From Natronosalvus halobius (lineage in GTDB: Archaea > Halobacteriota > Halobacteria > Halobacteriales > Natrialbaceae): DNA of 64,000 nt. The notes under the pieces were generated by a model. The model did not search any database and was not told the DNA's origin. It was given only the letters and a program-made list of their open reading frames with translations. The position numbers and the translations under genes are program-made. The stretch is from assembly GCF_024138145.1 (NCBI RefSeq), contig NZ_CP099997.1:1240001-1304000 (forward strand), read 5' to 3'. Below are positions 41,955-48,531 of the stretch, in pieces; position 1 is the stretch's first letter, and the number at the start of each line of letters is the position of its first letter.

Positions 41955-42980
41955 TTACTCGCTCGCAGCCGTCGCTTCGGCTTCCTCTTCCTCGTAATCG
42001 ACGTCCTCGTCCGAACGAGCAGCGACGAGTCCACCGCGAGCGACGCTGTACAGCGGCTCGTCGGCGTGGCTCACGCCGCTGATCGAGAACGGAATCGCTG
42101 CGTCCTGGAGGTGGTCTCGGAACAGGGCCTCGAAGCCGTTGGGGCTCGATGTCCCGCCGGTGACGACCACGGGCACGTCGAGGCCTTCCTCGACGTCCTC
42201 GTCGTCCACTTCCTTGACGATGTTCTCGATGACGTAGTCCAGGAGGTTTTCGTAGTAGATCGAGAGCGCACCTTCGACGCCGCCGACGTCGGTCGTGAAG
42301 TCGAGTTCGAAGTTGTCCTCCTTGATCGAGGTGACCTTGTCGACCGGGGTGCCGGTCGCGCGGGCGGCCTGCTCGTCGATCCAGTCGCCACCGCGGGCGA
42401 CGGAGAACTTCATGACCGGGACTGCGTAGTACGCAAGACAGACGTTCGTCATCCCGGCGCCGAAACTGATGCCGAGGCCGGTGAAGTTGTTGTCCGCGAG
42501 TTCGGAGTAGATGACGGACATCCCCTCGTTGATCGGTTCGGCGTCGTAGCCGATGTCGTTGAGGAAGGACTCGATCGTCTTCTGGTGGTAGAGCGTCGAG
42601 AGATCGTCGTCGATCGGATCGGCGGGCGTCGAGAAGTAGAGTTTCTCGTCGGGATAGGACGGCTCGCCGACGACCTGCTCGATGATGAGTTTCATCATCG
42701 GAATCGCGCTCTTCTCGTCGGCCGAGAGGATGCCGTGTTTCATCGGCCGGCGAGTTTCTTTGTTGAAGATGTTCGCGAAGTTGAGTGCGTCGTCGCCGAC
42801 GACGTACACCTTGTCGTCCTTTCGGATGTGAAGGACTTCGCTTCGCGAGAGCATCTGCTCCGCCATGTCGGAGTATTCGATCTCCACGAAGGAGTTACGC
42901 TGCTGCACAAATACGGTATCGGAACCATCCTGCTGTGCCGACAGGATGTTCATTGTTCCAACGTCTAGGCCTTTGGCCAT
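41955..42980 (-). CDS. Salactin-type actin homologue
   Basis: Actin/HSP70-superfamily ATPase of 341 residues. The phosphate-1 loop is [14 protein letters not shown] at the N-terminus, phosphate-2 is [18 protein letters not shown] (about 168-185), and the adenosine loop is [17 protein letters not shown] (about 275-291). Together with [20 protein letters not shown] this agrees with the haloarchaeal actin homologue salactin described in Halobacterium salinarum, which forms dynamic polar filaments. Identification is from memory of that family. A C-terminal acidic tail ([18 protein letters not shown]) is present. TATA box TTTATAAT at 43003-43010 on the minus strand, 23-30 nt upstream: leaderless. 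The upstream gene encodes a membrane protein. Confidence 0.85.
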
Positions 42981-43002
42981 GTTTCCTCAACTCCACTGAC
43001 GG

Positions 43003-43010
43003 ATTATAAA
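43003..43010 (-). promoter_or_regulatory. TATA box for salactin-type actin gene
   Basis: Read on the minus strand: TTTATAAT, about 27 nt upstream of the ATG at 42980. It shows that the actin gene has its own promoter inside the 95-nt gap to the membrane-protein gene. Confidence 0.75.
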
Positions 43011-43075
43011 TCTATGTACGTTTATTTCCGAGAAAGCTAGAGGTTATAAGTCCAATTACTCCATCGGCGAGTGCG

Positions 43076-43981
43076 TTAATTACGATTTACCAGCGACCGC
43101 AAGCGCTCCAGCAGCCCCGAGAGCGGGTTCGTGATGCGACGCCCCCCTGCTTCCTCGGCGGCCTGTTCCTTGCGTCGCTGTTCGCGCAGTTCCTTGAGTT
43201 TCTGGGTCTGGTCGTCGACCGACGACTCCGAAACGGCGGTCTTCTTCTCTCCACCCTTGAGCCCCTTGAGGCCCGCAACCTGTGCGTCGACGCCACTCGA
43301 CCGGGTCGTCTTCGTCGCCATGTTCGTGTCCAGGTTTTCGCTGTCGAACTCGTGGTCCGAAAAGGTCAGTCGTTTGTTCTCGGACTTCTGGACGCCTCCC
43401 CAGGAGAGTTCGACGCCCTCCATCGCGGCGTCGATGTCCTCTCGAATTTCCTCGTCGGAGTAGGTGAGTTCCTCGCCGTCCTGGTCGTCCCCACTCGCCT
43501 CGTTGACGGCCTGGGCCATCTCGAGGTAGTGCGCGATCAGCGCCGCCCCCGTCGAGGCGGTGACGCCGGCGAGTCCAACAGCGTAGACTGCGACGATCTG
43601 GGTGGTGTAATTGTTCCCGTACCTGTTCCAGTGATCGGGGTAGGCGTACAGGAATCCACCGACGGCCACGACCGTGACGGCGAGTCCGGCGATCGAGGTG
43701 TACAGGACTCGTCGTTCCGACGGGAGCAAGACCACGATCCCCAGCATCAGGACGGGAAGGGAGATCATCGCTACGGAGTACGCCGGCTCTACCCACACGA
43801 AGTACGCCGGAGCCTCGAGCGTACTACTCCACAGGTAGATGAGTAGCGCGACGATCGCGAATCCAATACCACCGAGAAACAGTCCGAACCCGACGTACAC
43901 ATCGGTCCGGTCGTCCGGTTCACCGATGTAGCGCCGGTAGAGGTCGAACAGGTACCCATCTGCAGGGTCTTCGGCTGCCAT
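43076..43981 (-). CDS. Membrane protein with cytosolic tail, DUF7139-like
   Basis: Protein of 301 residues. After a polar start (MAAEDPADGYLFDLYRRYIG) there are four membrane segments (about 27-50, 62-82, 92-112, 130-150). A long cytosolic tail follows, with LTYSDEEIREDIDAAMEGVE, WGGVQKSENKRLTFSD and a charged helix (DDQTQKLKELREQRRKEQAA). The family is, as I recall, DUF7139. It lies directly upstream of the salactin-type gene on the same strand, so it is a candidate membrane anchor or regulator for the filament (inference only). A GGAGGT ribosome-binding sequence stands just before the ATG, unusual among the leaderless genes here. Confidence 0.8.
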   Translation of the reverse strand: MAAEDPADGYLFDLYRRYIGEPDDRTDVYVGFGLFLGGIGFAIVALLIYLWSSTLEAPAYFVWVEPAYSVAMISLPVLMLGIVVLLPSERRVLYTSIAGLAVTVVAVGGFLYAYPDHWNRYGNNYTTQIVAVYAVGLAGVTASTGAALIAHYLEMAQAVNEASGDDQDGEELTYSDEEIREDIDAAMEGVELSWGGVQKSENKRLTFSDHEFDSENLDTNMATKTTRSSGVDAQVAGLKGLKGGEKKTAVSESSVDDQTQKLKELREQRRKEQAAEEAGGRRITNPLSGLLERLRSLVNRN

Positions 43982-44100
43982 TGACCTCCATTTACCCTCC
44001 AGTATTATGACTGTTGGGACGAAAAATACTCGCGTCGGTGTGCTCGATTCGAACGGAACGCGAGTGACCAGAACGGCCGTTCAGATCGGTGGGACGCCGC

Positions 44101-46713: not shown

Positions 46714-48531
46714 ATGAGCGAAACCGCGGATGGTGAGAAGGTGGTCGAGGTGACCGACAATGGGATAACGGTGCGAAAGTCGTTCACCGCAGACGAGTTC
46801 CCCGTGCCGGCCGTCCGGTTCGAATTCGAATCGACGCGAGAGGAACCGGCGACGATCCGACTCTCCGAATCGATCCCGGAATCGTTCCCGATGGACAGCG
46901 TCGGTTTCCACCCAGAGTACCACAGCGAGAACTGGACGGCGTTCCAGGACAACCACGTCGAGTTCTCCGGTGTCGTCTCGCCCGACAACTCGCTGGTCAC
47001 GGTTTACGGAGTCCGCCTCAACGAGGAGACGGACCCGACCGATTTTCTGACCGAACCGACGATCGAGGGTGTGTCCTCGGACGGAGACGAAGCAGGTGAT
47101 GGGGATGGCGATCTGGAGGACGAAGCCGAGGCAGACGAGGAAGCGGCCGGCCACCTCGACGAGACGATGATCGACGACATCATCGCCGACGACAGCAACC
47201 AGGTGGTCAAGGACATGCTGTCGGGGGAAGCCGACAGCGTGCCAGGCCTCGAGGACGATGAGGATGGTGTGGACGATGGAGACGATGAGGAGTCGAGCGA
47301 ACCGGAGGACGAATCCGCGGAGGCGACTACAGAAGCCGCGAACGAGGACGAAACCGCAGAAGCCGAAGACGAGGGCGAGCCCACAGAAGCTGAAAACGAG
47401 GACGAGTCGATCGACCTCGACTTCGACGAATCGGAAAGCGAGGATACGGTTTCCGACGACGCTGGCGACGCTGACAACGAAGACACCGGCGGCTTCCTCG
47501 ACGAGGACGAAGGACTCGACCTCGATCTGGGCGACGTCGACACCGACCCGACCCCAGTCGACGAGGACGAAGGAGACGACGAGGACGAGGACGCCCCCGA
47601 CATCGACCTCGGATTCGACGGCGAGGAGCTACCGGATCCCGCAGACGAGGACGAACCGGAAGACGACGCGCCGACGATAGAACTCGACCTCGAGGCGGCG
47701 GCCGCTGAGGCGGACGACGCAGACGATGCGGTAGACGATACCGAAGATGCCGACGCCAAAGACACCGACGTCGAAGACGCCGAGGCAGAGGAACTGGACC
47801 TCGAGGATCCCAGCGACGACGACACGGACAGCGATATGGACGAGGGCAAGGATGAGATCGAGGACGAAACCGACGTGACCGACAAACAGATCGCAGACGT
47901 GGCGAACGACGCCCAATCGCTCCCAGCCGACGCCGCGTCCGTCGGCGCGGCTCTCGCCAAGGAACTCCGCTCCGGTGAACTCGACGAGGATGACCGCGAG
48001 GCGATCCGGTCGGCCCTGGATGCCGACGTCGACTCCGAACCACCGGAGGCCACCCTTTCGGGTAGCGACGCCGCAAAGATCGAGCACCTCCAGTCCCGGG
48101 TGGAAGAACTCGCCGCCTACACCGGCGCGCTCGAAGAGTTCCTCGACGAGAACGGGACCGGTGAACAGCTCATCGACGAGTTCACGGAGCTAGTCGACTC
48201 GTTCGAGGCCGACCTCGAGGCGGTCAGCGAGACGGTCGAAACCGTCGACGAACGAACTGAGAACCTCGAGGCCGAACTCGCTGACACCGATTCGGCAGTC
48301 GACGACATCGAGGACGATTTGGAGGGCGTCGAAGGCGACCTGGAGAGCATCGAAGGCGACCTCGAGGAGGTCGAATCCGATCTGCAGGAATCTATCGACG
48401 ATGTCGAATCGTCGGTCGAGGACGTCCAGTCCGACGTCGAGACCCTCGAAGACGACCTCGAGGAGGTCCGAGACGAGGTCACGGACATCACGGAGTGGCG
48501 GAATCAGCTGGGTTCGATGTTCTCGGAGTAG
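46714..48531 (+). CDS. Large acidic coiled-coil protein
   Basis: Protein of 605 residues, not recognised as a named family. Residues 1-115 form a beta-rich domain (VVEVTDNGITVRKSFTADEF; PESFPMDSVGFHPEYHSE). Residues about 120-420 are a Glu/Asp-rich low-complexity linker with no hydrophobic segment. Residues about 455-600 are a long coiled coil with seven-residue periodicity (DLEGVEGDLESIEGDLEEVE). A conserved-looking segment (ADVANDAQSLPADAASVGAA) lies between the linker and coil. There is no signal peptide. It is probably a cytosolic structural or scaffolding protein. TATA-like GTTTTAAG about 27 nt upstream of the ATG. Confidence 0.85.
   Translation: MSETADGEKVVEVTDNGITVRKSFTADEFPVPAVRFEFESTREEPATIRLSESIPESFPMDSVGFHPEYHSENWTAFQDNHVEFSGVVSPDNSLVTVYGVRLNEETDPTDFLTEPTIEGVSSDGDEAGDGDGDLEDEAEADEEAAGHLDETMIDDIIADDSNQVVKDMLSGEADSVPGLEDDEDGVDDGDDEESSEPEDESAEATTEAANEDETAEAEDEGEPTEAENEDESIDLDFDESESEDTVSDDAGDADNEDTGGFLDEDEGLDLDLGDVDTDPTPVDEDEGDDEDEDAPDIDLGFDGEELPDPADEDEPEDDAPTIELDLEAAAAEADDADDAVDDTEDADAKDTDVEDAEAEELDLEDPSDDDTDSDMDEGKDEIEDETDVTDKQIADVANDAQSLPADAASVGAALAKELRSGELDEDDREAIRSALDADVDSEPPEATLSGSDAAKIEHLQSRVEELAAYTGALEEFLDENGTGEQLIDEFTELVDSFEADLEAVSETVETVDERTENLEAELADTDSAVDDIEDDLEGVEGDLESIEGDLEEVESDLQESIDDVESSVEDVQSDVETLEDDLEEVRDEVTDITEWRNQLGSMFSE

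Follow-up and report, generated by a model that had tools for sequence, protein, structure and literature searches.

Volactin, the actin homologue VolA of Haloferax volcanii (HVO_2015; PF25216), forms dynamic filaments whose tips are attached to the membrane, an attachment for which the authors of that work invoked unknown binding factors; these dynamics have been published in vivo for H. volcanii only (PMC10869688). They are described as ParM-like, and volactin shapes both cells and tissue-like stages in Haloferax. No membrane partner is named in the volactin papers that we found, and our literature searches returned no mention of DUF7139 and nothing on HVO_2014 or HVO_2016. Salactin of Halobacterium salinarum (PF25229) is, like volactin, an actin-fold archaeal filament protein, but its acidic extension is N-terminal whereas that of volactin is C-terminal.

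Partner proteins of several other actins provide points of comparison. In the MreB-RodZ and MamK-McaA/McaB systems, bacterial actin filaments are joined to partner proteins at the membrane, as we propose below for volactin; RodZ combines a helix-turn-helix with one membrane span. ParR is a DNA-bound adaptor whose tail helix binds the end of the ParM filament through a hydrophobic groove, the mode of contact proposed here for the DUF7139 tail, except that the platform of ParR is DNA and that of the DUF7139 protein would be the membrane. In the arcade cluster, arcadin-2 has a conserved Trp-containing helix, preceded by an unstructured linker, that binds crenactin in its hydrophobic groove, a site that is also used by ParM-ParR (PMC5173319).

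A DUF7139 membrane protein encoded upstream of volactin

The window analyzed here is a 64,000-nucleotide stretch of the Natronosalvus halobius genome (NZ_CP099997.1, positions 1,240,001 to 1,304,000). The original prediction, made from the sequence of this window, had described a gene for a four-span, DUF7139-like membrane protein followed on the same strand by a salactin-type actin gene. Both genes were found there, on the minus strand and 95 bp apart [Table 1]. The membrane protein matches DUF7139 (PF23600) at 163.7 bits (curated cut-off, 30 bits) and its AF2 model shows four long helices, in agreement with the prediction. Unlike RodZ, it has four spans and no helix-turn-helix, DUF7139 being its sole Pfam match. 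The assignment of the actin had to be revised: the protein is a volactin, matching PF25216 at 459.6 bits over positions 1-321 of the 321-position profile (curated cut-off, 35 bits), and is a full-length member of the VolA family, salactin being a separate Pfam family (PF25229). Pfam returned no PF25229 match for this protein, and a search of the whole genome gave none either, which disposes of a salactin identity. The polar growth invoked in the original prediction does not apply either, as it was described for salactin, volactin filaments being attached to the membrane at their tips (PMC10869688). The AF2 model of the window volactin is a confident actin fold (pLDDT 90.3) whose best matches in the PDB are MreB (E 9e-16) and the MamK filament (TM 0.69). 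Between haloarchaeal families, volactin sequences are 79-94% identical, which is too little variation for contacts to be predicted by co-variation.

Table 1. Coordinates in the window of the two genes, the domains and motifs of the DUF7139 protein, and the promoter elements.
Feature	Coordinates	Strand	Basis or remarks
DUF7139 membrane-protein gene (volactin-associated)	43076..43981	-	301 aa; PF23600
Volactin gene (actin homologue)	41955..42980	-	341 aa; PF25216; acidic C-terminal extension
Four-helix transmembrane domain, residues 25-164	43490..43909	-	AF2 helices and loop charges
Cytosolic tail, residues 165-301 (137 residues)	43079..43489	-	Tail profile A1
Tail motif 1, DEEIREDIDAAM helix followed by SWGGV, residues 176-197	43391..43456	-	
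Tail motif 2, VDAQVAGLKGLKGG, residues 231-244	43250..43291	-	Predicted short helix, AF2 232-242
Tail motif 3, VDDQTQKLKELREQRRKEQAAEEA, residues 255-278	43148..43219	-	Charged helix, AF2 255-278
C-terminal amphipathic helix, residues 286-299	43085..43126	-	AF2 286-299
Volactin promoter element ACATAGATTTATAATCCGTC	42998..43017	-	TATA box 43010-43003
Promoter-like element CCCAACAGTCATAATACTGGAG upstream of the DUF7139 gene	43997..44018	-	Conserved

The separate promoters that had been predicted for the two genes are borne out by comparison with related loci. The TATA box of volactin lies approximately 30 nt 5' of the ATG, an arrangement of the leaderless archaeal type, and 42 of 47 loci have a TTTAT in the -38 to -22 interval relative to the volactin ATG, its usual position being -30 (mean of 1.9 and maximum of 6 loci in shuffled sequences). 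The DUF7139 gene has an element of its own, CCCAACAGTCATAGTACTGGAG, which close relatives keep before its ATG and which aligns with constant spacing in loci of the Natrialbaceae type. Upstream of the pair and on the same strand, the window encodes a YlbF/YmcA-family protein (PF06133; 44101-44499, minus strand) that ends in a Cys/His-rich GGCCHD. On the plus strand, it encodes a very acidic protein of 605 aa with a C-terminal coiled coil (46714-48531), whose only matches in Pfam are sub-threshold coiled-coil ones.

A four-span membrane domain followed by a flexible tail

The long helices of the DUF7139 protein (residues 25-52, 59-85, 90-113 and 126-164 of the AF2 model) form a block with pLDDT values of about 91-98. 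Among the orthologues sampled, positive charges number one to three in the loop that joins helices 2 and 3 and are almost absent from loops 1 and 3, a distribution indicative of an N-in/C-in topology with both ends cytosolic. A structure search of the PDB for a known fold of the membrane domain gave LTC4 synthase as best match at an E-value (0.09) that is not usable, a sequence search of the PDB with alignments A3 and A1 (the latter covering the tail) returned chance-level matches only, and neither Pfam nor the structure search revealed an enzyme signature in the membrane domain.

Most of the tail is modeled with low confidence; short helices at residues 176-187, 232-242, 255-278 and 286-299 are separated by low-confidence linkers. 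The conserved positions fall into three motifs. The first ends in WGG[VI] in 63 of 63 linked orthologues and, with conservation in this segment taken from alignments, has invariant D, A, W, G and G residues in the 22 rows of A1, while the patterns of motifs 2 and 3 recur in 62/63 and 61/63 linked orthologues, respectively. The abundance of Lys, Arg and Glu that the original prediction had noted in a tail helix is true of helix 255-278. The C-terminal helix is amphipathic, with a median moment of 0.64 for the best 11 residues within the last 24, compared to 0.42 in shuffled sequences.

Volactin and the tail are kept or lost together

Volactin (matches above cut-off) and the tail (profile A1) were recorded in 194 haloarchaeal genomes. 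Both are present in 117 genomes and both are absent from 75, with a single genome having volactin only (G060) and another the tail only (G187), such that 117 of the 118 genomes with a tail encode volactin. The Fisher p-value of this association (6e-52) is uncorrected for phylogeny, and we therefore place more weight on the pattern within genera and on the unlinked cases. Eight genera are in a mixed state, and their genomes have either both genes or neither, with no split pair other than in G187, a fragmented draft of 180 contigs. In G060, an ORF of 153 aa fuses the start of DUF7139 in frame to the end of volactin (L253, 5166-5624, plus strand), indicating that a single deletion took most of both genes. 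Given that one deletion can remove linked genes in this manner, many of the co-losses are not independent.

The two genes adjoin one another, with DUF7139 upstream, in 97 of the 117 genomes that have both. In the first set of loci, DUF7139 was directly 5' of volactin in 64 of 70, and in named genomes, Haloferax and Haloarcula among them, the tail protein adjoins volactin in 77 of 80 loci, the exceptions being two Halorubrum contigs and one Halostagnicola contig. In one Halorientalis the tail protein is found downstream of volactin instead. Genome G106 has three volactin matches (one of them partial) on contigs C3, C4 and C5, each directly downstream of a tail gene. The poor synteny reported for salactin (PMC10746226) is inapplicable to volactin. 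The 20 unlinked genomes, namely 17 of the Halorubrum type, G049, G076 and G129, have all retained both genes; the 17 comprise all of the volactin-positive genomes of the Halorubrum-type genus, where the two genes lie far apart. These 20 genomes are stronger evidence than the co-loss of linked genes.

The tail, rather than the membrane domain, follows volactin

DUF7139 proteins occur in 190 of the 194 haloarchaeal genomes, whatever their volactin status. The paralogues lack the tail motifs and carry instead a C-terminal DUF7140 cysteine motif (YCGNC...PYCG), a domain that is absent from the window protein and present in a DUF7139 protein encoded in the same genome (L102; C1:1677379-1677825). 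A further DUF7139 paralogue of this genome (C1:1742247-1742675) is part of a 984-aa open frame. In a tree built from 140 columns of the membrane domain, some of whose branches are long and of which the main splits only were used, the tail proteins, whether linked or not and including that of the window, group together with support of 98/94, the paralogues separating at 97/95 and the non-haloarchaeal proteins at 100/100. The unlinked proteins of the 17 Halorubrum-type genomes, G049 and G076, falling in one clade with the linked ones, are orthologues of these.

Comparison of these distributions indicates that volactin is tracked by the tail and not simply by the membrane domain. Salactin served as a control actin and showed no association with the tail in the 194 genomes (p 0.08; both present in 52, salactin only in 44, tail only in 66, neither in 32); none of the genomes of the window's family is among the salactin-positive ones. 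In G129, a copy of the tail in which IGG replaces WGG is carried by a PQQ-type beta-propeller protein devoid of the membrane domain (L074, 8501-9916, plus strand). The encoding gene is divergent from the adjoining volactin gene, and a normal DUF7139-tail protein is encoded elsewhere in G129.

The pair outside the haloarchaea

Volactin is also found in non-haloarchaeal genomes of the same phylum. At each of the 17 loci read (17/17), one homologous protein of 223-311 aa is encoded directly 5' of volactin, the other neighbours varying between loci. Profile-profile comparison aligns these proteins with haloarchaeal DUF7139 over the tail as well as the membrane domain (prob 99.4, E 1.2e-21), and Pfam, too, finds DUF7139 in them. 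Judged by coordinates, every one of the 23 non-haloarchaeal genomes whose volactin is intact has an over-threshold, divergent DUF7139 directly upstream. Among those devoid of volactin, an over-threshold DUF7139 was found only in G342, where it is part of a different kind of ORF, 601 aa long. Profile A1, made from haloarchaeal tails, gave no matches outside the haloarchaea, where the tails were detected by profile-profile comparison only. The position of DUF7139 upstream of volactin in these genomes suggests that the pair is most likely older than the haloarchaea. Conservation of the pair, the check that the original prediction had put forward, hence extends across haloarchaeal families to their non-haloarchaeal relatives.

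A candidate membrane anchor for volactin filaments

A partnership between DUF7139 and volactin is strongly supported, and we consider it probable that volactin has in the DUF7139-tail protein its dedicated membrane partner, in all likelihood an anchor. Because retention and loss of its tail go hand in hand with those of volactin, this protein is the best candidate yet for tying volactin filaments to the membrane. Four helices would fix it in the cytoplasmic membrane, the N and C termini both lying on the inner side, and would leave exposed to the cytoplasm a flexible tail made up of three short conserved helix motifs, one of them followed by the invariant Trp-Gly-Gly, and of the amphipathic C-terminal helix. 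Contact with volactin would be made by the tail, in all likelihood at the ends of filaments and via the hydrophobic groove of the actin, and a membrane patch of the protein may in this way hold or nucleate cell-crossing volactin filaments at their tips. We infer the physical binding, the anchoring of tips and the use of the groove as binding site; a role as anchor or nucleator of tips would suit a membrane protein whose flexible tail has multiple motifs and which is retained only alongside volactin. The DUF7139 tail resembles arcadin-2 in that a neighbour-encoded actin partner displays a conserved short helix and a disordered linker, and the WGG[VI] that follows a helix in all 63 linked orthologues is only suggestive of a groove binder of the arcadin-2 type. 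Arcadin-2 is, however, described as a depolymerizer with a C-terminal helix, whereas the DUF7139 protein spans the membrane four times and has several motifs, and the likeness is drawn without any claim of homology. The original prediction of a membrane partner contacting the filament through its tail holds insofar as the pair is conserved and the tail tracks volactin, but it was attached to the wrong actin subfamily.

Foremost among the alternatives is a sensory or regulatory role for the DUF7139 protein at the membrane, in which it would act on volactin polymerization as a nucleator, capper or depolymerizer that signals membrane state and would play no mechanical part. We regard this as unlikely, although the co-occurrence of volactin and tail fits it equally well, the four-helix domain has no enzymatic or known fold match, and a neighbour-encoded archaeal partner, arcadin-2, depolymerizes crenactin via its C-terminal helix (PMC5173319); the published attachment of filament tips to the membrane needs a physical link (PMC10869688), and a single protein may serve as both regulator and anchor. 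That volactin positions the DUF7139 protein as a cargo whose own activity is what matters strikes us as improbable. The paralogues that bear other tails in volactin-free genomes suggest that the membrane domain may act alone, but neither a known fold nor a signature of an enzyme was recognized in this domain, and the tail is also found without it, on the beta-propeller protein beside volactin.

The adjacency of the two genes might finally reflect inherited gene order with no functional link. Co-loss by one deletion is possible, as in G060, yet the adjacency persists in several families and outside the haloarchaea while other neighbours change, the tracking is specific to the tail, and a tail has come to lie beside volactin on another protein. 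Unlinked genomes keep both genes, and we reject this explanation in its pure form, considering it very improbable.

If the DUF7139-tail protein does anchor volactin, one gene, usually its direct neighbour, would encode the membrane-binding factor for which it is now a candidate, with a defined tail, and an archaeal actin would gain a membrane linker testable in a genetic model and a linkage whose age is shown. Linkers between actins and membranes are already known; DUF7139, an uncharacterized family, would be a new variant. It is about an even call whether the pair represents an ancient actin-membrane linkage module, predating the haloarchaea, with a portable tail of several motifs that captures filament tips at the membrane and can be borrowed by other proteins, which would thereby become volactin ligands.

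Actin domains fused to a membrane segment

The N. halobius genome encodes a second volactin-like actin domain in a protein that continues into a lengthy coiled coil and ends in a hydrophobic membrane segment (G000:C1:654513; L101, 6409-9159, plus strand) and that looks like a self-anchored actin. Such fused actin proteins of 650-1360 aa are also encoded at loci L255-L263, mostly in the window's family, and a C-terminal hydrophobic segment is present at 10 of 10 fused-actin loci.
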